Part shown: piece after piece, positions 978 to 15,241 of the stretch | How positions within the stretch are numbered: position 1 is the stretch's first letter | Layout: every line of letters begins with the position of its first letter | IMG/VR virus record: IMGVR_UViG_3300041405_000058 | Location: 1 to 20,119 of that record | DNA from: a virus | Strand: one strand, 5' to 3' | Length of the DNA stretch: 20,119 nt | Notes under the pieces: generated by a model | What the model saw: the letters and a program-made list of their open reading frames with translations, nothing else | The model's database searches: none | Told to the model about the DNA's origin: nothing | Translations under genes and position numbers: made by a program

Positions 978-2384
978 ATGTTAGAAGCACTATTTTTTAG
1001 CAATTCTGGACCGACTGTTTTTGTTCCACCGGTAGTTTTAGATAATTCAATATTCCAAGGGTTCGTTAAATCCTCTGATTTAATCGGTGGTAACGCCTTG
1101 GCTGGTTTAATTGGGTTATCGGCTGGTACATCATTCAACGATGATGCTGGTTGGTTACACTTCAGCGATAATGGTGTTGAGAAATATATTGCTCGATTGC
1201 CGATCCGATATGGTGTAACACATGCTCAGTATGTCGCCGCCGGCATGAAGGCTGGTAAGGAGGTGGTATTTAATGGACGCCGATTTAATGTACGGTTAAT
1301 GACGGGTCTTACTAACTCGAGCTGGCCATCTATTTCTGGTCAACCTACTGCCGGTAGTGAATGGAACACGTATATGTATCCGATTTACGATGCACCAGAT
1401 CGACCTTCTGCGCCTGTTTGGTCTACGTACAAGAACGCCGATTTAGGTATGTCGTCATTACCTATTGCAGCTAAAGGCTCGATCACCGTAACTAGGGAAG
1501 AACACTCTTCGGTCAACACTTATTTCGCTGCCCGTGGATATGACTATTCGGGTAGTATGTCAGCAAACGTCATGACGCGGGTAACCGTAATTAACGATAC
1601 CAACGCTAACGAAGGTAACGGTGGGGGTGGATTTAACTCGTATGGATTCAGACCTATTCTTACTGAGCTTGCTCCATTCCCGGTGTACAGTGACACAGGA
1701 CCGGGTCCAACTGATTTAGTTAAGTATGACACCGCTACGTCATCTGGTTATTTCGGTACGGTGGATAATGCTAGCTTCTTCACTACTGATCAGATCGAAG
1801 CTAAGGCGCTTGTTTCGATGACTGGTACGACCTATGGCCGTGGGCTTACGGGCTTGTGGCAGAAGTTCGTTGTGCAAGATAAGATTTTGTTTATGCCCAA
1901 GGTTATTCAGCGTCAGAACACTTCGTGGGATGACCTTTATAAAGCCGGCTTTATCTTTGGTACGGATGACAATGGTATCGATCCGGGCGTCAATGCTCCT
2001 GTTAACCAGAGACGAACCATTGATTGGGTTGATGGCAATGGTAAGATCTTTACATTTGCTATCCGAGTAGCTAAGGGTCTTACAGTTAACCCTAGTAATA
2101 ACTCAGGTTCCACATCACCTGATGTTGTTGGGTCAGAGTACTCACTTACTATGGAACGTATCTATCCAACTAACGGTATCGATGTTGCTTGGGCATCGCT
2201 TGGTACTCCAGGACCTTCACCCCTTGTTAGGGAGTCATGGAACTATCTCGAGGGTGGTAAGTATACCTACAGCTACGTTGCCAATGGTAACTCCAATGCG
2301 TACACGCGTTCACGCACACTTAAGTCTGCAATGACTAGTGGTTGGTTGCCGGTATTGGAACTAATTTCAGTAACGGTGCCATAA
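978..2384 (+). CDS. Tail-fibre-like protein with two related modules
   Basis: 468 aa, monocistronic, with its own promoter-like motif and terminator. The N-terminus MLEALFF resembles the first residues of the two other fibre-type genes in the window. Residues about 18-235 and 240-468 are two diverged copies of one module. Each copy has an aromatic-rich segment (GWLHF..KYIARLPIRY in copy 1, LWQKFV..ILFMPKVI in copy 2), then an AAGM or KAGF turn, then a (K/R)xFxxxxR strand, a SEW/SEY segment and a terminal F/LxPxLxEL-type strand. Copy 2 is introduced by DTGPGPT and closely matches the protein at 9194-9916. This arrangement, with Gly/Asn/Thr/Ser richness and no catalytic motif, is typical of phage tail fibre or receptor-binding proteins. 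The exact role is inferred. The ribosome binding site (GGGTAAG upstream of ATG 978) is weak. Confidence 0.75.
   Translation: MLEALFFSNSGPTVFVPPVVLDNSIFQGFVKSSDLIGGNALAGLIGLSAGTSFNDDAGWLHFSDNGVEKYIARLPIRYGVTHAQYVAAGMKAGKEVVFNGRRFNVRLMTGLTNSSWPSISGQPTAGSEWNTYMYPIYDAPDRPSAPVWSTYKNADLGMSSLPIAAKGSITVTREEHSSVNTYFAARGYDYSGSMSANVMTRVTVINDTNANEGNGGGGFNSYGFRPILTELAPFPVYSDTGPGPTDLVKYDTATSSGYFGTVDNASFFTTDQIEAKALVSMTGTTYGRGLTGLWQKFVVQDKILFMPKVIQRQNTSWDDLYKAGFIFGTDDNGIDPGVNAPVNQRRTIDWVDGNGKIFTFAIRVAKGLTVNPSNNSGSTSPDVVGSEYSLTMERIYPTNGIDVAWASLGTPGPSPLVRESWNYLEGGKYTYSYVANGNSNAYTRSRTLKSAMTSGWLPVLELISVTVP
1683..2384 (+). repeat. Second fibre module (paralogous coding repeat)
   Basis: Codons 236-468 of the fibre gene encode a module related at protein level to codons 18-235 of the same gene and, more closely, to codons 18-240 of the minus-strand gene at 9194-9916. 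Shared landmarks with the latter are D(T/S)GPGPT, GYFG, (K/A)AG(F/M)(I/V)(F/Y)GT(D/N)DNG, PVNQ(R/L)RT, the G(D/N)GK(I/T)(F/Y)TF strand and the C-terminal PVLE(L/I)ISVT. Confidence 0.8.
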
Positions 2385-3194: not shown

Positions 3195-3563
3195 TTAATA
3201 GCCTTCGTTCAGCAGTTCACTTAATGCACGTGCTTGAGATACAGCTGTATTAGCGAATACATCACTCAAGTAGTAATCTTTGTCTACAGCTAGCGTAGCG
3301 AGTTCTCTCATGAGTTCTGGGTTAGCCTTAGCCCATGTTGCCCAGAAACCTTTATAGTCCTCATACGTCGGATTAAAGCCTTCTAGGGGTGGTTTCCCCT
3401 TAGCGTCCTTCCAGTTGTTTGTAAACTGTCGATAACCCTTGCAATCTAACTGCCAAGCTTCCTCAATAGTGCGCCCATCCGGTAGTCGTGCAAACAAAGC
3501 ACTGAATCGTTTGTCGCCAACGGAGGAACATTCGTATCCTCCGCGACGCTTCCACCGGTACAT
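3195..3563 (-). CDS. Small conserved phage protein coupled to the polymerase gene
   Basis: 122 aa. Its ATG overlaps the polymerase stop codon in the sequence TAATG, so translation is probably coupled. The N-terminal half carries the pattern RRGGYECSSVGDKRFSA, then ARLPDGRTIEEAWQLD, then KGYR, then GKPPLEG. I recognise this as a small protein of unknown function found in many large phages and some others, but I cannot give it a verified family name. The C-terminal part (FWATWAKANPELMRELATLA and onward) is helical. There is no signal peptide or membrane segment, and it is not a homing endonuclease. Coupling to a DNA polymerase part suggests a role in nucleic-acid metabolism; that is inference. 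Confidence 0.8.
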   Translation of the reverse strand: MYRWKRRGGYECSSVGDKRFSALFARLPDGRTIEEAWQLDCKGYRQFTNNWKDAKGKPPLEGFNPTYEDYKGFWATWAKANPELMRELATLAVDKDYYLSDVFANTAVSQARALSELLNEGY

Positions 3564-5668
3564 TACTTTGGGTTAGCTTTAGCCTTCAGATAACCGGCCA
3601 ATACTTCATCCAACTTAGGACCGCGCATCACTTTCTGAGCGATCTCCAGTACGTTCGTTCGGCAACCTGTGAGGTTAACGCCAAGTTCACGTTTATGGTA
3701 ATCACTCACCCCTTGTACAGCCGATGTTTCCATTACCGTAGTTTCACGAGCAATGTTCAGAATCTGACTAACGTTAGGATAAGTCGAAACAATGTCCAAG
3801 TCAGCTACGTGTGTCCAGATCAACGATCGGTAGTTAGGGAGATCCTTAACGCACTTAATACCGTTAGGACCTGCCATGTAAGTCGGTAGTGTTACAATCC
3901 AACCGTCATGCCCCACTACATACTGGTCAAGGTCATGAACCATCTGATCCGAACTGGTACCAATCACGCAAGGTTCAGGTCGATTCAGATACCAGAAGTG
4001 CATATCGTCAACGAGTCGCTTCGGGTTAGAGTTAAAGTTCTTATAGTCCGAGCTTTTAGAGAACAGTGTAATCGAGCTGGCCAAGTCATTGATGCGTTCA
4101 TCCAGTTGTTCTAGTCGAATGCTGTCGATGATGTTGTAAAGCCCGTATCGCACTTTGTGGTGCTTCTGCATCTCAATGTGCCATTCGATCCCATTGAGGT
4201 GGTCGGTTTCTTTGAACTTCAACTTACCAAAGTTAAGCTTCATGTTAACCATAAAGCCTGGATGTACGTTAACACCCCACACCAATTCGTCGACGCTTTC
4301 CCAGATCGGTTCACGATGCTCAACTTCACGAGATACTGTGTCTTCTTCGAAGTCGTAGATAAAGCTTACGGTATCATCATCATCGAAGTCCGCAGGAACG
4401 TCATCATCTTCAGACTCTTCCTCCTCGGCATCTTCTTCATCTTCAACCTCTAGTGCTTCAGTTACGGTCTCATAGGTCACCTTGTCATTGGCTGGGTTAG
4501 ACACGCTCCAATATGGATGACTACCACTACGGTCATTGATCGCCTTATTACAAGTCTTCATGAACGCAATAAAATCTTCCTCTGTTTTAACCTCAGCTTC
4601 TTCATCAACCGAGAGTTCTTTACGAAGAATGGCATCCAAGGCATAACTAGGTTCTTTACCCTTAGCGAGTCGAGTTACCCGATAGGTAGACATCGAGTCA
4701 ATGCACTGGAACGAAGCTGGTGCTGTAACCCAATGCCACTGATCCTCAGGACCCTTAGACTTAGTCACACCACTGGCCGTAGTGTTCATCGCTTGGTCTT
4801 GACGATAATGGAACTTACGATACTGTGGCGGTACCTTAGGATCACTGAATACATCAGCTGGATTAATCCCGTAATGCTCCAAGCACTTCAAGATTCGACT
4901 CATGTCGAAGTCCATGTTCCAGAAAGCAAAGAAGTCAGGCTTCCATTCATGGAGACGGCGCATACACTGAATAACAATATCAGCTGGAGTATTAACTACT
5001 TCAATCTCAACCTTCAGGTTACGAGCTTTCTTCAGAGTAACCAGTTCAGGAATACGTTCGAGTTCATCTAACGTTTCTTGTACCGGGTTCTCAAGGTCAC
5101 TTACCCAATGTTTCAAATAAGCAAGGTATACGTTCTCTTTATACGTAACGGACATACAGATGATCTGTCCATCGTTCTCAGATTCGTATACGTTTGTTTC
5201 GATGTCACCGCCAGCTACCGAGTTACGACTAATCAATCCCGGATAAGCTTCACGGTAATCATTCTTCAGGTAACATACAGAGCTAACGTCAGCACCATAC
5301 AAGTAAGGACTACGCGCGAGTTGTCTCAGTCTAGGGTTAGGTCCTTGACTAAAGTCATTCAATGCTCGAGCTACAGCTCTAGGCAACTTAGCTTGCGTAG
5401 TCTTAAACTGCTTAAGCTTTGACTTAAGCATGTAGTCTTTCTTTTCCTTGTATGGCCTTAAGTGTTCTGGTTTCTGTACAGCAGGGTCAATCCAAAATGG
5501 ACGTTCATAGTTCTCTACGATCTTTACTCGAGGTATACGTCGCTTGTCCTTTAGATGGACAATCTCCTTAACTACGTGAATATCGTTATTACCACCAATC
5601 TCTGTAACGTGTGTAATGTGTTTGGCTTCAATGCCTACCACATCGTCCTTACTGAATTGCTCGGTCAT
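3563..5668 (-). CDS. Family B DNA polymerase, exonuclease and partial palm (C-terminus missing)
   Basis: 701 aa, start ATG at 5668 with GAGG 7 nt upstream. Motifs in order: Exo I D155-I-E157 in AGGDIETN; Exo II N251-MDF-D255 in FWNMDFDMSRIL; Exo III Y511-NII-D515; polymerase motif A D625-IVSTYP. These define the 3'-5' proofreading exonuclease and the start of the palm of a family B replicative polymerase. The protein ends about 70 residues after motif A, so motif B (KxxxNSxYG in the fingers) and motif C (DTD) are absent. It cannot polymerise alone unless the rest is supplied by another polypeptide. A highly acidic stretch (about residues 405-450) sits between Exo II and Exo III. The first 150 residues are basic and poorly conserved. 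No late-type TATG motif lies upstream, suggesting early or middle expression. Assignment to family B is confident; the split-gene explanation is inference. Confidence 0.85.
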   Translation of the reverse strand: MTEQFSKDDVVGIEAKHITHVTEIGGNNDIHVVKEIVHLKDKRRIPRVKIVENYERPFWIDPAVQKPEHLRPYKEKKDYMLKSKLKQFKTTQAKLPRAVARALNDFSQGPNPRLRQLARSPYLYGADVSSVCYLKNDYREAYPGLISRNSVAGGDIETNVYESENDGQIICMSVTYKENVYLAYLKHWVSDLENPVQETLDELERIPELVTLKKARNLKVEIEVVNTPADIVIQCMRRLHEWKPDFFAFWNMDFDMSRILKCLEHYGINPADVFSDPKVPPQYRKFHYRQDQAMNTTASGVTKSKGPEDQWHWVTAPASFQCIDSMSTYRVTRLAKGKEPSYALDAILRKELSVDEEAEVKTEEDFIAFMKTCNKAINDRSGSHPYWSVSNPANDKVTYETVTEALEVEDEEDAEEEESEDDDVPADFDDDDTVSFIYDFEEDTVSREVEHREPIWESVDELVWGVNVHPGFMVNMKLNFGKLKFKETDHLNGIEWHIEMQKHHKVRYGLYNIIDSIRLEQLDERINDLASSITLFSKSSDYKNFNSNPKRLVDDMHFWYLNRPEPCVIGTSSDQMVHDLDQYVVGHDGWIVTLPTYMAGPNGIKCVKDLPNYRSLIWTHVADLDIVSTYPNVSQILNIARETTVMETSAVQGVSDYHKRELGVNLTGCRTNVLEIAQKVMRGPKLDEVLAGYLKAKANPK

Positions 5669-5885
5669 TGTAGTGCCTCAATGAGTTATAGAACTGTATA
5701 GCTTATGGTGGTTAAGTTTATTCATCCTAGCGTATGAAGATAAGAGCAATAAGGCTATAAGCTAATCGCTTATATTAATTAAAAATAAAAAGCCCCCTCC
5801 GTTGCTCTTAGTCTAGTCTACATTAGATTAGGAATCTCAAGTATTCTTTAACACAATCTTTATGATTACTCTTAAGGATAACCAC
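5669..5885. promoter_or_regulatory. Divergent control region with nested inverted repeats
   Basis: This 217-bp AT-rich gap separates the minus-strand polymerase operon from the plus-strand metallopeptidase operon. TAAGAGCAA (5741-5749) and TTGCTCTTA (5802-5810) form a perfect 9-bp inverted repeat. Inside it, GGC/GCC (5753-5755/5792-5794) and TATAAGC/GCTTATA (5756-5762/5768-5774) can pair, the last with a 5-nt loop. TATATTAAT at 5771-5779 resembles the AT-rich TATATTAC element I recall for phiKZ early promoters. Candidate promoters for both directions must lie here. Confidence 0.5.
5861..5868 (+). promoter_or_regulatory. Possible late promoter motif TATGATTA
   Basis: TATGATTA precedes the start at 5886 at the spacing seen for the other TATG motifs (22 nt from the G of TATG to the ATG; the others have 24-32). 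It is a weaker match. Its ATG also opens an in-frame extension of the coding frame, but that ATG lacks a ribosome binding site. Confidence 0.35.
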
Positions 5886-7148
5886 ATGAACAACTTCACT
5901 ATCTCTAATGAACTACTGATGGTAGGTGCTAAATCAGAGATTGGACCTATTACTAAGAAATGGATTGATGAGTACATTAAGATCAGTGTAGATCATCCTG
6001 ATCCTAATGATCCATTGTTCAAAGACCTATGTGCTCAGTATATCAAGGATGTTAAACGGGTAACCGGTATTAACATCGCTCTTGAAATCTATGACATCCC
6101 CGATCTCATCATGGGTGTACGTAGTCAGATTACATGGTTCGGTCATCAAGGTACTCGTTGGTATCGAGCTAAGGAAAGAAAGATCGTATCTGAAGACTCA
6201 GTAGCCCTGAAGAAACTGATACAGGTAGATCTTAAGACTGGATTTGTATCAGGCGATATCGTCAAAGACCTTACCTACACATTTATTCTATCGCATCAGA
6301 TGCTTAATGGGTTTGGTGGATTCACATCGGCTGAGAATACAGCTAGCATACTCCATGAGTTTGGCCACATCATCAACTCATTCATGTACCTAGGTGATTA
6401 CGTCTGGTTGAATTACTATTTGACCGAAGGTATCGAAGTGATGCTGGGTCGGAAGAAAGCTAAAGTAGAGCTTGAACTGTATAACGATCGTTGGATGCGT
6501 GAGAACGTACCAAAGGAAGAATACGAAGCCTTCACACATAACCAAACTGAAGAAGGTGCTAAGCGAGTTATCCTGAGCGTCGCTAAGAAACTACCTCGAC
6601 ATCACTTGACTCAAAACGAGATCACCGCTAAACGACGTGAAGAACAAACCGCAGACATGTACGCTACCCGTCTTGGGTATGGTCGTGATCTAGCGAGTGG
6701 ACTACACAAGCTTAGCAAGTACTACGAAGATCCATCCTTGGTTGGAGCATTCTGGTTCGGTGAAATGGCTAAGTTGTTTGCAACGGTATTATTCCTACCA
6801 TTCGCTATTATCGGTCTGATGGTATACGACCCAGCAGGTGGAGATGCCCACACGATGGATGGGCGTTACGATGAACCTATGGATCGGTTGGTTAAGATCC
6901 GCCGTGATCTGGTGGCACAACTTAAGAAGCCTGGACCACTCAACAAACAAGCTCTGGCTGACGACATCGATGCCATTGACGAGATGATCAAAGAGTACAG
7001 CACGAACAGCTCTATGTTCGACAGCATCATTAACTTCTTCCGACCTAGTGTCCGCAAAATGCGACAGAATACTAAAGTGGAAGATGATCTAGAATCACTC
7101 ATGAACAACGACCTGTTCCTACAGGCTCACAAACTCAGCAAAATGTAA
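5886..7148 (+). CDS. HExxH zinc metallopeptidase (gluzincin, M48-like) with a membrane segment
   Basis: 420 aa from the ATG at 5886, chosen over an in-frame ATG at 5862 because AAGGA (5874-5878) lies 7 nt upstream. Residues 157-161 are HEFGH inside SILHEFGHIINSF, a zinc-binding HExxH helix. E253-QTA-D257 in REEQTADMYATRLG matches the ExxxD third-ligand helix of M48-type gluzincin peptidases. A hydrophobic segment at about 296-313 (KLFATVLFLPFAIIGLMV) is probably a transmembrane or membrane-attached helix. It is followed by HTMDGRYDEPMDRLVKIRR (322-340), resembling the conserved HPxxxxRIxxL end of M48 peptidases. The C-terminus is a charged helical tail. It heads an operon with the 146-aa, Gp49-family and inner-head-like genes. 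Its substrate is unknown. It is not of the serine prohead-protease type used for head maturation in T4 or phiKZ. Fold class is fairly sure; biological role is open. Confidence 0.8.
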   Translation: MNNFTISNELLMVGAKSEIGPITKKWIDEYIKISVDHPDPNDPLFKDLCAQYIKDVKRVTGINIALEIYDIPDLIMGVRSQITWFGHQGTRWYRAKERKIVSEDSVALKKLIQVDLKTGFVSGDIVKDLTYTFILSHQMLNGFGGFTSAENTASILHEFGHIINSFMYLGDYVWLNYYLTEGIEVMLGRKKAKVELELYNDRWMRENVPKEEYEAFTHNQTEEGAKRVILSVAKKLPRHHLTQNEITAKRREEQTADMYATRLGYGRDLASGLHKLSKYYEDPSLVGAFWFGEMAKLFATVLFLPFAIIGLMVYDPAGGDAHTMDGRYDEPMDRLVKIRRDLVAQLKKPGPLNKQALADDIDAIDEMIKEYSTNSSMFDSIINFFRPSVRKMRQNTKVEDDLESLMNNDLFLQAHKLSKM

Positions 7149-7158
7149 GGTACCTACC

Positions 7159-7599
7159 ATGCGCATTGGTTACGAAATCTCGCACTACCTCAAGAATGTC
7201 AAAACCCAAGAAGGCAACGAACGCACCATTCGTGCAATGATGGTTGCTAACGCTTTGGGTTATCACTTCCCACTCGATCCTACCAAGTCAGCTTTTGATA
7301 ATGCAGAAGACCAACTGCCGGCTGCTCGCAAAGTAATTGGTCAGATTAATGAGAACATCTCTCTGGACTCCCGTCTGGCTACGGAACTATTCAAACAAGT
7401 TATCGCAATCCGTTACGAACTGCTGACTGGTTGCGTATGTTCCTCGATCATCGAAGCCGCTATGCGTTCGCACACTGCTGCCGATCATCAGACCAGCGCT
7501 GAGACTACTGCGGCACTGTCGCTCGTATCGAACCTTGAGTTCATGCAAGCTCAAAACGGCATTCAAAGCGTTCTGCGTTCGATGCCAGTTGAAGAGTAA
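7159..7599 (+). CDS. Hypothetical phage protein, 146 aa
   Basis: The ATG at 7159 follows the metallopeptidase stop by 10 nt, with TAAGG of the stop region serving as ribosome binding site. The protein is largely helical with an N-terminal RIGYEISHYLKNV segment. A cysteine pair sits in LLTGCVCSSIIEAAM near residue 95, and the tail is Ala/Gln/Ser-rich. There is no signal peptide or transmembrane helix. I do not recognise the family. Its position inside a tight operon between a metallopeptidase and a putative internal head protein suggests late expression and perhaps a virion or assembly role, but nothing in the sequence itself shows function. Confidence 0.8.
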   Translation: MRIGYEISHYLKNVKTQEGNERTIRAMMVANALGYHFPLDPTKSAFDNAEDQLPAARKVIGQINENISLDSRLATELFKQVIAIRYELLTGCVCSSIIEAAMRSHTAADHQTSAETTAALSLVSNLEFMQAQNGIQSVLRSMPVEE

Positions 7600-7609
7600 G
7601 GGGCTAACA

Positions 7610-7915
7610 ATGGATAACGGTGATGAGCCTCAGAGGCTCCCCCGCATTACCAAAGCCTATGCGAAGTCATTGATCGCCATGGAGCGTATCGTTGTCGACA
7701 CTGATATGTCGGTAGTGGTCGTTATGGTTAAGCTAAAGAACAAACAGCGGTTTGTAGCTGATGCGATCGTAGCGAATACAGAAATCTTTGATCCTGAACG
7801 CGGTACTCAGATTGCTCGAGAAAAGATCTATCGAAAGATTATCGACGCCGAGATGTATCAACTCCGTACGAAGCTACACGAGCAAAAACTTAAGGAGGTC
7901 AACGATGTTGACTGA
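7610..7915 (+). CDS. Gp49-family (Phage_gp49_66-like) small phage protein
   Basis: 101 aa from the ATG at 7610, preceded by AAGGGG 7 nt upstream. The frame is open further upstream to 7535, but that would run inside the previous gene and has no ribosome binding site. The core reads KNKQRFVADAIVANTEIFDPERGTQ, then IAREKIYRKI, then AEMYQLRTKL. This follows the Gp49/Gp66-type phage family pattern: a variable strand, a FD(P/A)E.G..IARE.A..KI turn-helix and a terminal YxLR.xL helix. The family is common in phages and its function is unknown. It ends 11 nt inside the next gene, which implies coupled translation. Confidence 0.7.
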   Translation: MDNGDEPQRLPRITKAYAKSLIAMERIVVDTDMSVVVVMVKLKNKQRFVADAIVANTEIFDPERGTQIAREKIYRKIIDAEMYQLRTKLHEQKLKEVNDVD

Positions 7916-9152
7916 ATCTGAAATTCTGGACGAACAAGTCCAGACCCTAGACGAAGCTTTGGATAAACTGACTGATCATGAATCTAACCAGATTACCGCA
8001 AACGTAGTCCCTGATACTGATGTCAGTCAAGCAGTTAGCGTAACGGTTGAATGTCTTAAGGCTACAGTTGACCTTTATCACACCATCTCCGCAGAAGGTG
8101 TATCAGCTGCCGACGTTAAAGCACTGCGTCACATTCGTGAACGTATGTCACCGTATATGACCCTTAGTTATCGTCCAGCTCTGGAAGCTTACGAAGGGAT
8201 GTTTACACCTAACCGTTCGATGATCAACCAGGTTGTTTCTCAGGAAGCTACTCTAGCTGAGATCGGTATTACTCTGAAGGAATGGTTCTTCAAGTTTATC
8301 GACTTCGTTATTAAAGTGGTGGACTGGTGCCGTATCGCTTGGAACTCCGAGACTGCGGTTAACATGCGTCTACGTCGCATTGACCATAACTTGCAATCGA
8401 TGTTCAACGCCTTTGACGACGTCTACAAGCGTAACAAATTGGCTGGCCGTGAACTGAGTAAGGAACTGAACGAAATCGCCAAGCAAGTCCTCCTAGACCC
8501 TAAGCTGACCCGTACTCGTGCCATGTTGCAAGCTTTCGGTGTTAAGCAATACGAAGGTGTGATCAATGATGCCGATTCGGTGGTGGATGATGCTTACCGT
8601 TGGATCTTGATGGACATCGTTGGGTTGAAGAACCACATCGAACAGAACAAGCCCATGGCTCTCGGTCATGACTACGCTGCTGATATTAACGTAGCTGTCG
8701 ATACAGTTGAGGCACTGCATGTAGCCGACGCAGATGTAGACTTCTTCATCGAGAATCTACCGAAAGACTTCTGGGCATCGCCTAAGCAGTTGCTGGCACG
8801 TAAGGTTTATCCACCATCGCACAACATCGAGCAAGTACAACAGATCGCTAAGAAGTTCCGTGAGATCCGCCGTAACGCTAACTTCGAGAAACTCGATGGC
8901 GTTGATGAGATCGTTCAAGCTGTAGAGAACATCACCGGTACCATCAAAGGTCTGGAACGCATGATCACAGCTAAGCAGAATCTGTTCACCAACTATTACA
9001 AGGCTTCCGCTACCTTGGCTAACTTCTACATTCGTGGTCGTGATATGCTGATGGAAGAGTACCTTAAGAATGTTGATGACGATTCCAAGAAAATTGTCAT
9101 GGATAAGCTTCAGAAACAATGGGACGACATCTGCTACAAGATGGGTCTCTAA
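7905..9152 (+). CDS. Putative head inner-body-type structural protein, 415 aa
   Basis: The start ATG at 7905 has a strong AAGGAGG 6 nt upstream and overlaps the previous gene by 11 nt. An in-frame extension to 7788 is rejected because it lacks a ribosome binding site and overlaps heavily. The N-terminal about 114 residues are acidic and end in VVSQE (S112-Q-E114). S/A/G-x-E is the cleavage signature of the phiKZ prohead protease. After it comes LAEIGITLKEWFFKFIDFVIKVVDW, an amphipathic aromatic helix, then a long helical domain. The region 93-140 aligns with residues 334-382 of the 639-aa protein at 18049 (LExY..., then EIG, then a helix ending W), so the two look like paralogues. In phiKZ, several paralogous inner-body proteins are processed this way and packed with the DNA; that role is inferred here. 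A terminator follows. Confidence 0.8.
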   Translation: MLTESEILDEQVQTLDEALDKLTDHESNQITANVVPDTDVSQAVSVTVECLKATVDLYHTISAEGVSAADVKALRHIRERMSPYMTLSYRPALEAYEGMFTPNRSMINQVVSQEATLAEIGITLKEWFFKFIDFVIKVVDWCRIAWNSETAVNMRLRRIDHNLQSMFNAFDDVYKRNKLAGRELSKELNEIAKQVLLDPKLTRTRAMLQAFGVKQYEGVINDADSVVDDAYRWILMDIVGLKNHIEQNKPMALGHDYAADINVAVDTVEALHVADADVDFFIENLPKDFWASPKQLLARKVYPPSHNIEQVQQIAKKFREIRRNANFEKLDGVDEIVQAVENITGTIKGLERMITAKQNLFTNYYKASATLANFYIRGRDMLMEEYLKNVDDDSKKIVMDKLQKQWDDICYKMGL

Positions 9153-9193: not shown

Positions 9194-9916
9194 TTACGTT
9201 ACCGAAATGATTTCTAGCACTGGACGCCAATTAATTCCGTCGTTTGCTTTCTGGCCATGGCTACGGTATCCGTAATTAGAGTTACCGCCAGCAGCTACGA
9301 AATATTCAGTATAAGTAGTTCGCGATTCCATACCCATGGAAAGGAGTGAGTCAATATTGGCTGTACCGATGTTATCCCAAACCACCGGGTTACCAACTGT
9401 AGGAAGGCATCGTTCGAACATCGTCCATTCAGTATTAGTACCAATAGCGATACTGGTATCTGGAGCTGGATCAACGTTCGCTACTTGCGGTAATCTAACT
9501 TTGAAGGTGTACGTCTTACCATCACCTGCAACTTTAGTAAGTGTTCGTAACTGATTCACTGGAGTACCAACTGGATATTTACCATTATCGTTAGTACCAT
9601 ACACCATACCAGCCGCGTAGATATCGGCCCAAGCAATATTAGTAATCCTAAATGGACGTTTGGCGATATAGAAAATCTTCCCAGCTTTGATAAATTTAAG
9701 CCAGCCATTCTGGTCAGTGTTGGCCGCTGTATTAGGGGTGCCTGTAGTCATCGGCCCAGCCGCTGCAACTTCATCCGGGGTAAACAGCTGAGCTAAAGTA
9801 GTGATACCAAAATAACCTTCATCGATAGTACCGGCCTTAAGAGTCGTTGGACCAGGACCACTATCTGGAACAGTCGGCGTGACCTTAACACTCACGCACA
9901 TGAGATGCTCTAGCAT
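9194..9916 (-). CDS. Single-module tail-fibre-like protein, paralogue of the 978-2384 gene
   Basis: 240 aa, ATG at 9916 with GGAAA 6 nt upstream. The N-terminus MLEHLMCVSV resembles MIEHLLAF and MLEALFF of the other two fibre genes. A short linker ending DSGPGPT (residues 18-24) leads into one fibre module: EGYFGITTLAQLF, NGWLKFI..KIFYIAKRPFRI, WADIYAAGMVYGTNDNG, PVNQLRT, DGKTYTFKVRL, TEWTMFER, and a terminal WRPVLEIISVT. This matches the second module of the 468-aa protein very well. No catalytic motif or membrane segment is seen. It is monocistronic, bounded by hairpins on both sides, with TATGTTAAT upstream. Probable role: tail-tip or fibre component for surface recognition, possibly an alternative adhesin; this is inferred from the class. 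Confidence 0.75.
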   Translation of the reverse strand: MLEHLMCVSVKVTPTVPDSGPGPTTLKAGTIDEGYFGITTLAQLFTPDEVAAAGPMTTGTPNTAANTDQNGWLKFIKAGKIFYIAKRPFRITNIAWADIYAAGMVYGTNDNGKYPVGTPVNQLRTLTKVAGDGKTYTFKVRLPQVANVDPAPDTSIAIGTNTEWTMFERCLPTVGNPVVWDNIGTANIDSLLSMGMESRTTYTEYFVAAGGNSNYGYRSHGQKANDGINWRPVLEIISVT

Positions 9917-14014: not shown

Positions 14015-15241
14015 ATGCCATTACCAATTGTTAACTCCGCACTTAGCGGAGATGCAGGTGCCGTAGGTCGTGACCTGATGGCCACTGTACTGACCGCTGC
14101 AAAGTCGATGAGTTCTATTAGCTCTCTGGCTGACGTGACCAAGCCGCTGCGTGTTGAACCCATTACCATCATCGATCAAACGATCGCTGATCAACCCTAC
14201 ATCCAAGACCTGCTCAAACTGAGCGTTAGCCTTTATGCCGGTTATTACCTGCAAGCCGTTAACATGGTTTTCGGTGTAGGTAAGATTGATACCCTGAAGG
14301 TATTCGACTCGCTCAACCCTGAGCGTAGTGGTGCTTCGGCACTGGGCTTTGAGAACTTCCGTTCGGCTGTGTTCTCCCCAGAAACCTATGCTAATGGCAT
14401 TCCATCTCTGGAAGCATTTGCTAAACCGATGCGTCAAGGTCTGATCGCCGAATATTCGGACGAGAAATACCAAGCGTCTCTGGAATACCACACTTCTATG
14501 GAAGCGCAAGCTCCAGCTGCCCCAGGCAAGAAAGATGTCAGGGACCAGAAGGGTGATAAAGAACCAGTTCACAGCATGTCGTCTGGTGACGGCGGTAAGA
14601 TTTACGAAGCCGAGAACCTCGCTATCGGTAAGTTGATTAACGTCGAAGTTAAGTCTGGTAATGAGAAAGCTAAGCTTCCTGTAACCATCAAACTGATTCC
14701 TGCGGTTGTACCTTCCGATACAATCACTCATATCTTTACTGCTGGTGGACGTGATACTTGGGCTCACCGCCTGTTCTTGGTGAAGTCTGGTCAGATCAAA
14801 TTCTGGCGTGACTTCGTAATGGGTCAAGATATGATCGATGCTCACATGAAAGCATTGATGACTGACAAGTCCGGTGTCTATAAGACAATTCTGGATCGTC
14901 GTCGTAATAACGTTGCTCAAGCTATCGCCTCTGGCCGTCTGAGTCTGGCAGATGCTTCGAACATCGCTATCATCTCTGCTACCACCATGAAGCAATCGGC
15001 TAATACCCTTTACGCTAAGATCGACGATGTCAGCGTACGTAAGAAGTTCTTTGATAACTCTTACCTGTTGATGATGATGACTGTTGATGAGCGCTGGAAC
15101 CGCGTGACTATTTATCACCGTGGTGTGGATCTGGCTGCTAGCTACCGCATCGACGACATCAAGCTTGCTGAGAAATCGAAAGGTCAGGATATCACCGAGA
15201 TCTTCAAAATGTTCAGCAAGCAAATGCACACTAACATCTAA
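14015..15241 (+). CDS. Putative virion structural protein, 408 aa
   Basis: ATG at 14015 with a purine-rich AGGAAGAGAGAG upstream. This is the first gene of a four-gene operon (14015-17979). The N-terminal domain is Ala/Ser-rich and helical (residues about 1-165, including YAGYYLQAVNMVFGVGKI). A polar Pro/Ala/Lys/Gly/Asp linker follows at about 165-200. The C-terminal mixed domain (about 205-408) contains LPVTIKLIPAVVPSDTITHIF and a polar helical end. No catalytic motif, signal peptide or sure transmembrane helix is seen. An antisense frame of 402 codons overlaps almost all of it, but this strand has the operon, the ribosome binding site and plausible protein composition. Family not recognised; virion component is inferred from context. 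Confidence 0.8.
   Translation: MPLPIVNSALSGDAGAVGRDLMATVLTAAKSMSSISSLADVTKPLRVEPITIIDQTIADQPYIQDLLKLSVSLYAGYYLQAVNMVFGVGKIDTLKVFDSLNPERSGASALGFENFRSAVFSPETYANGIPSLEAFAKPMRQGLIAEYSDEKYQASLEYHTSMEAQAPAAPGKKDVRDQKGDKEPVHSMSSGDGGKIYEAENLAIGKLINVEVKSGNEKAKLPVTIKLIPAVVPSDTITHIFTAGGRDTWAHRLFLVKSGQIKFWRDFVMGQDMIDAHMKALMTDKSGVYKTILDRRRNNVAQAIASGRLSLADASNIAIISATTMKQSANTLYAKIDDVSVRKKFFDNSYLLMMMTVDERWNRVTIYHRGVDLAASYRIDDIKLAEKSKGQDITEIFKMFSKQMHTNI

Follow-up and report, generated by a model that had tools for sequence, protein, structure and literature searches.

What a putative membrane metallopeptidase would be doing among the head genes of a giant phage is the question raised by a gene at positions 5886-7148 of a viral DNA stretch of 20,119 nucleotides, referred to here as the window (IMG/VR record IMGVR_UViG_3300041405_000058). 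A sequence-only reading had proposed a divergent M48-type peptidase with a membrane-like segment, and all the elements that it listed are present in the 420-amino-acid translation: H157-EFG-H161, E253-QTA-D257, a hydrophobic segment and the tail HTMDGRYDEPMDRL. An upstream in-frame ATG at 5862 is also open, but the start at 5886 was preferred because AAGGA (5874-5878) sits 7 nt ahead of it. Scans for promoters and terminators nearby yielded nothing to go on.

The window protein matched PHROG 2767 ("unknown function") over residues 2-420 (E 5.1e-92), which amounts to full-length similarity. Its orthologues include phiKZ gp84, 201phi2-1 gp145, PhiPA3 gp086, EL gp52, and SPN3US ORF45/gp45, which are cross-linked by notes in the sequence records. 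It had also been suggested that phages seldom encode such enzymes, which does not hold in this lineage, where they are widespread: tblastn with the window protein matched 216 phage records with a threshold of E≤1e-3 and 243 with E≤1 (272 at E≤1e-3 for the neighbor gp87), and a family search was positive in all five further jumbo phages, PCH45 (E 1.4e-98), Goslar (E 9.9e-79), OBP (E 4.5e-32), phiR1-37 (E 2.0e-9), and AR9 (E 6.3e-5). AR9 carries two PHROG 2767 members, g051 and g118. The second of these zincins, g118 (L063:655-1626), lies directly 3' of the major head gene and lacks the plug histidine described below. One homologue (L037:3650-5731) is 694 amino acids long, with about 260 extra C-terminal residues past the protease-like part that have no Pfam match above cut-off.

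Table 1 Features of the predicted metallopeptidase gene and of the genes downstream, in window coordinates
Feature	Coordinates	Strand	Detail
AAGGA, ribosome-binding-like	5874..5878	+	7 nt upstream of ATG 5886
M48-like metallopeptidase gene (predicted)	5886..7148	+	420 aa; orthologue of phiKZ gp84 / SPN3US gp45
Predicted 9-residue N-terminal propeptide MNNFTISNE, cut after SNE9 by prohead serine protease	5886..5912	+	[SAG]xE column
HEFGH, predicted zinc-binding/catalytic motif, residues 157-161	6354..6368	+	H, E, G, H invariant 25/25
EQTAD, predicted third zinc ligand motif, residues 253-257	6642..6656	+	E, D invariant 25/25
Hydrophobic helix, residues 295-313, between ExxxD and plug	6768..6824	+	hydropathy maximum; model helix 289-313
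YDEPMDR, counterpart of M48 plug HPx4R, residues 328-334	6867..6887	+	Y/H 23/2 of 25; R334 25/25
gp85 orthologue, vertex-binding protein by Pfam name	7159..7599	+	PF25615 E 6.6e-57; PDB 8y6v chain E, molecule gp85
N4 gp49/Sf6 gene 66 family protein	7610..7915	+	PF13876 E 1.9e-7 (scanned from 7607)
gp86 orthologue, vertex-binding by Pfam name / candidate ejection protein	7905..9152	+	PF25617 E 9.2e-114; PDB 8y6v chain G, molecule gp86

In order to determine whether the putative zinc site is a property of the family, we compared two alignments. The first (A3) held the window protein and 24 proteins from viral_contigs with 17-85% identity to it, and H157, E158, G160, H161, E253, D257, G264, and R334 were identical in all 25, as were M1 and G123. 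In the second, more diverse set (A6; 23 proteins, including those of AR9 and phiR1-37), the same eight positions from H157 to R334 were the sole invariant columns. Absence of H157, H161, and E253 from homologues would have spoken against the sequence-only reading; all three are kept in 25/25, and the reading survives. The motifs alone are unremarkable, with 351 of 20,000 shuffles of the window protein containing HExxH and 94 of 20,000 containing it with an ExxxD further along, so the case for a protease rests on conservation among homologues. Across the window and the phage loci retrieved, 57 of 356 stop-to-stop frames of at least 200 amino acids contain HExxH, and 47 have HExxH, ExxxD, and [YH]x5R at the family spacing. 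All 47 are this gene, one per locus, in a count that includes some overlapping or repeated loci; the AR9 proteins fall outside the spacing pattern. Judged on these alignments, the HExxH/ExxxD observation is correct and goes beyond chance.

Which family of zinc peptidases this protein resembles was addressed with profiles. The window protein itself has no Pfam match at E≤10, and hence none reaching the PF01435 (M48) gathering cut-off of 20.3 bits, and no NCBIfam match at E≤1. The PDB rows returned by its single-sequence search, those for Merlin, were not meaningful (best E 0.31). Family profiles were used for this reason. In a Pfam tally that lists 25 of 32 families, with SprT-like outside those 25, M48 matched more members than any other family (12/25 at E≤10, best 2.8e-4), versus one of 25 each for Reprolysin_3, Zincin_1, M1, and M43 (E 0.024-0.37). 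Ten relatives were scanned singly against PF01435, and of these L040 passed the cut-off (21.2 bits) and six had no M48 row at E≤10. The match of L040 stops before ExxxD, and that of SPN3US gp45 (L017) spans both HExxH and ExxxD. Both AR9 proteins also passed (23.8 and 22.1 bits), and phiR1-37 g204 failed (15.3 bits). AR9 g051 scored 24.1 bits against SprT-like, below the cut-off of 25.6, versus 23.8 against M48, above the cut-off, and with scores so nearly equal this protein alone does not separate the two.

Searched against the PDB, the A3 profile found ZMPSTE24 (E 8e-5) and Ste24p (6.6e-4), with the next unrelated row at 0.085, while A6 gave E 7.3e-6 and 2.1e-4 for the same enzymes and 0.02 for the next unrelated row. 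Below E 0.01, the family profile finds M48 enzymes alone. The ZMPSTE24 alignment takes in both the HExxH and ExxxD blocks, with E253xxxD257 paired with ZMPSTE24 block 411-441. Compared by hhalign with four Escherichia coli M48 proteases together, A3 reached a probability of 78.8 (E 1.6e-5) and A6 81.5, with 73.6 for HtpX and 67.2 for LoiP, in alignments that span 21-34 columns around HExxH only. The control, the M1 gluzincin PepN, scored 0.5 (E 0.11) and shows no profile similarity beyond HExxH, so that a comparison with M48 and other gluzincins, which the earlier reading had proposed, favors M48.

In predicted structures the M48 signal is weak. AlphaFold2 models of the window protein (pLDDT 71.8, pTM 0.73) and SPN3US gp45 (70.7 and 0.74) are of moderate confidence, and in the former HEFGH lies on helix 148-186 and EQTAD on a separate helix, 245-279. 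The best Foldseek match in the PDB was ZMPSTE24 for both, weakly so (E 0.034 and TM 0.17 for the window model; E 0.13 for gp45). VIA-align, which re-ranks Foldseek's own list, placed M48 enzymes at ranks 1-6 for both models with Z of 6.5-8.5, in a range where Z near 8 can be background. For the window model these included Ste24p (Z 8.5, rmsd 9.0, 179 aligned) and the GSU M48 protein 3c37 (Z 6.5), with 5.7 for the first unrelated entry; for gp45 they included Ste24p (Z 8.1, rmsd 9.2, 195 aligned) and BepA 6ait (6.5), with 6.0 for the first unrelated entry. The best named matches among viral models were virion structural proteins of related phages, AR9 zincins, and phage proteins named Peptidase, BepA, or M48. 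Taking the profile searches, the weak model matches, and hydropathy together, the proposal of a divergent M48-type peptidase with a membrane-like segment is supported, and the family is very probably one of M48-like metallopeptidases.

The best matches by both profile and fold are Ste24p/ZMPSTE24 (M48A, CAAX prenyl protease 1; Z 7.3-8.5 to the window model). Ste24 has a seven-helix membrane barrel. The window protein has no such barrel; it differs in being 420 amino acids long with one hydrophobic helix or hairpin, in its tyrosine plug, and in being packaged in the virion, the last by orthology. The E. coli M48 proteases HtpX, BepA, LoiP, and YcaL share HExxH, ExxxD, and the plug arginine with it, but all four have an HPx4R plug where the window protein has YDx4R. 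BepA has a TPR domain and the window protein has none.

This plug is one departure from M48. HPx4R is conserved throughout PF01435 (PMC7950410, Bryant et al.), and the same study places BepA H246 in the fourth zinc site and R252 in the active site, and describes H246N as apparently deregulated. Since the window protein has YDx4R instead of HPx4R, we call it an M48-like variant and stop short of placing it within M48. Its tail had been singled out by the sequence-only reading; the tail is indeed present and contains YDEPMDR, but is better described as the counterpart of HPx4R with histidine replaced by tyrosine. The tyrosine lies six residues before the invariant arginine, the same spacing as for the plug histidine (H276-R282 in HtpX). 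In this column L037 and L038 have histidine and the other 23 of 25 have tyrosine, and AR9 g051 (DPHPTIYKR) and phiR1-37 g204 (DPHPSNKAR) carry the canonical HPx4R. From the spacing and these histidine-bearing relatives, tyrosine has most likely taken the place of the plug histidine in phiKZ-type members. In a tree, all 18 tyrosine-plug rows lay to the same side of a single branch (support 91/90, not starred; recovered in 92% of bootstrap trees), and a single histidine-to-tyrosine change in the family is likely, with the tree unrooted and the histidine rows on long branches. The plug tyrosine may act as a zinc-facing switch.

Another is the hydrophobic segment. The best 19-residue Kyte-Doolittle window of the window protein starts at residue 295 (mean 2.19), and the hydropathy maximum falls between ExxxD and the plug in all 25 homologues (19-residue means 1.49-2.74). 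The segment is about 20 residues long here and, by eye, about 40 with a central proline or glycine in many others; the SPN3US gp45 model has two helices there, 303-320 and 324-340. In HtpX the hydrophobic segment after HExxH (196-214) precedes ExxxD (E222), whereas in the window protein it follows ExxxD. AR9 g051, AR9 g118 (zincin protease), and phiR1-37 g204 (structural protein) belong to PHROG 2767 and have HEIGH and ExxxD, as in the family, but g051 and g204 lack an insertion between ExxxD and the plug.

The earlier reading had pointed to virion proteomics as a way forward, and presence in particles is already reported for orthologues: the family was detected in virions by mass spectrometry in 201phi2-1 and SPN3US. 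Record annotations give structural or virion protein in 201phi2-1, phiKZ, and phiR1-37; the phiKZ record reads structural head protein, and several related records read virion structural protein. Work on SPN3US places gp45 in the head and shows by mass spectrometry that it is cut at ASE-20 (PMC5694885, Table 1), its propeptide being similar in length to the capsid-targeting sequences of T4 (PMC5694885, PMC10052503). The prohead-protease motif of phiKZ is reported as S/A/G-X-E (PMC10449902, PMC10052503). SPN3US gp45 and the window protein are both in PHROG 2767, and the glutamate of ASE-20 aligns with window E9; the SPN3US propeptide has 20 residues ending in ASE, versus 9 ending in SNE in the window protein. 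The [SAG]xE motif is found in that N-terminal column in 23 of the 25 A3 sequences (the exceptions are L038 and L041) and in 18 of 23 in A6, where the AR9 pair and phiR1-37 g204 keep the glutamate but not the preceding S/A/G. By orthology the window protein is almost certainly a head protein, and phiKZ-type members in general are probably packaged and trimmed of a short propeptide. That this lineage matures its heads with a serine protease, as previously stated, is borne out by PMC5694885 and PMC10052503.

SPN3US gp45, phiKZ gp84, 201phi2-1 gp145, and EL gp52 share both the motifs and the kind of gene order seen in the window, and the suggestion that the gene adjoins a putative inner-head gene in an operon fits its neighbor gp86. 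The label "vertex-binding" for gp85 and gp86 comes from Pfam and PDB molecule names only. Both match PDB entry 8y6v, which we take to be the phiKZ capsid, unlike phiKZ gp84, which matches no PDB chain. In 14/14 annotated records, the gene is followed by a same-strand gene of 136-166 amino acids and then one or two more, after which opposite-strand genes come next, including a long gene that several records call a gp87 homologue or virion protein. In FLC9, two small opposite-strand genes precede the long gp87-like gene. When the downstream gene of ten records was scanned against PF25615 (gp85 family), four matched at E≤1 and one lay above cut-off, so that Pfam picks up homology to gp85 only in part beyond the close Pseudomonas group. 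A gene similar in size to the N4 gp49/Sf6 gene 66 family gene at 7610-7915, between gp85 and gp86, is found in 201phi2-1, PhiPA3, and Noxifer, and none is found in phiKZ.

Other features of the window were also recorded. Genes 978-2384 (+) and 9194-9916 (-) share virion-protein modules (PHROGs 1062, 3589, and 16120), and the latter lies between gp86 and gp87, a place without a gene in phiKZ and 201phi2-1. Gene 3563-5668 (-) encodes a 701-amino-acid DNA polymerase/exonuclease homologue (PHROG 3011) with the long acidic stretch VEDEEDAEEEESEDDDVPADFDDDD. A 402-amino-acid open frame at 14021-15229 (-) is antisense to nearly all of the virion gene at 14015-15241 (+) and is probably a codon-usage artefact.

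These observations can be assembled into a pathway. The 9-residue N-terminal signal would carry the protein into the prohead, and the prohead serine protease would remove it after SNE9, as proposed from the conserved site and the cut shown for SPN3US gp45. H157, H161, and E253 are predicted to bind zinc with E158 as the base, given that these residues are invariant and that the profiles match M48. Y328 and R334 would form a plug in place of HPx4R, keeping the enzyme quiet until a substrate displaces it. The packaged protein is probably ejected with the genome, and it would leave the head together with early proteins. The hydrophobic helix or hairpin could then insert into the host inner membrane or into the vesicle around the incoming DNA, where the enzyme might cleave membrane or ejected proteins. 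Once injected, phiKZ DNA sits in a vesicle whose origin is believed to be the host inner membrane (PMC13282480). Both gp86 and gp47, the SPN3US protein in the matching position, have been proposed as ejection proteins, and gp47 is described as an essential ejection candidate with a transmembrane segment (PMC5694885). The membrane segment, these ejection-protein neighbors, and the inner-membrane vesicle make action after ejection the better guess. We give even chances to this account as a whole, in which a head-packaged M48-like membrane metallopeptidase of phiKZ-like jumbo phages acts after ejection.

Against the account, SPN3US gp45 carries no essential mark in Table 1 of PMC5694885. Against ejection in particular, the main text of PMC10449902, which validates injection of several phiKZ proteins, makes no mention of gp84, and since gp85 and gp86 occur in one solved entry under vertex-binding names, these clustered genes may have their function at the capsid vertex and not in ejection. 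The alternative that fares best builds on this. The protein may be a second head-maturation protease, one that stays behind at ejection and has gp85, gp86, inner-body, or vertex proteins as its substrates within the prohead or capsid. Its presence as a head protein with a propeptide resembling capsid-targeting sequences would fit, as would the gene order gp84-gp85-gp86. In SPN3US, gp45 has a mid to low SC/M of 2.99, between the portal (1.29; 12 copies) and the tail sheath (8.84; about 264 copies) (PMC5694885), a range into which some 60 vertex copies could fall. In phiKZ virions, the 63 semi-tryptic peptides reported, of which 15 were mapped to earlier data (PMC10449902), leave space for other cuts. 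However, the study of SPN3US heads attributes each of its 14 listed cleavage sites to the serine protease gp245 and scores 42 head proteins as uncut by it (PMC10052503). That leaves no visible product of a second protease, a point slightly in favor of use after ejection, though the study looked for gp245 sites and further cuts could have escaped notice. A membrane segment also has no obvious use in a capsid, and phiKZ gp84, as noted, has no match among PDB chains. We consider a maturation role unlikely, although it is the most serious competitor.

The protein could also be an inactive M48 descendant that only stabilizes the head, as the structural annotations in phiKZ and related records and the loss of the plug histidine in 23/25 might suggest. 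E158, the predicted base, would be dispensable in a structural zinc site, yet it is kept in 25/25 sequences down to 17% identity, and of the eight invariant columns of A6 all but G264 belong to the three motifs, while G264 follows one of them by seven residues. Loss of activity is therefore improbable, and the conserved "structural" protein of phiKZ-like giant phages is probably an enzyme. A little less probable again is that the enzyme acts late, as newly made protein in the host membrane (in quality control, lysis, or remodeling around the phage nucleus), with its presence in heads incidental. The M48 relatives HtpX, BepA, and YcaL carry out membrane-protein quality control (PMC7950410) and the hydrophobic segment would suit such a role, but the [SAG]xE site in 23/25 together with the specific processing in SPN3US points to deliberate packaging, and the abundance in virions, mid to low, is above that of the portal. 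Finally, that HExxH arose by chance in some helical structural protein unrelated to M48, which the shuffles and the weak Foldseek scores might have allowed, is hardly credible in view of the conservation, the M48-specific profile matches, and the motif spacing.

Some of this has been anticipated in record names, a few of which already use M48. The Moabite protein is called an M48 family lipoprotein protease (by HHpred to HtpX), the Yaphecito record likewise names the protein, that of Proteus phage 7 is called a beta-barrel assembly-enhancing protease, and AR9 has a zincin protease with pfam01435. In the literature searched, which covers part of the field, we found no paper describing this protein as a metalloprotease and no report of activity, zinc, or ejection for any family member. 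The terms gp45, metallo, and peptidase are absent from PMC5105663, and the proteases in the relevant parts of PMC6207643 and PMC6892783 are a host Vibrio protease and an FtsH homologue, not this protein. PMC10643120 and PMC9700779 contributed nothing on it. As far as these searches show, the tyrosine plug, the family-wide propeptide site, and the insertion between ExxxD and the plug are described here for the first time.

A broader reading can be put forward tentatively, as doubtful but worth stating: the protein may be a central entry enzyme in nucleus-forming jumbo phages and related ones, namely an M48-like membrane metallopeptidase with a tyrosine plug. It would be packaged in its propeptide form, ejected with the genome, and then, at the host inner membrane or at the lipid vesicle in which the phage DNA is first enclosed, process ejected or host membrane proteins for vesicle formation or for handing on the genome. 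If so, the existence of relatives in AR9, a phage of Bacillus, would imply a role that is independent of an outer membrane. SPN3US heads contain about 50 different proteins, most of undefined function (PMC5694885), and the M48-like assignment gives one conserved head protein predicted catalytic residues (E158, H157). The assignment thereby bears on whether enzyme action distinct from that of the prohead serine protease is needed in head maturation or in the poorly understood first minutes of infection, while the phage DNA is enclosed in a membrane vesicle. The tyrosine-for-histidine plug would be a natural variant of the M48 auto-inhibition mechanism.
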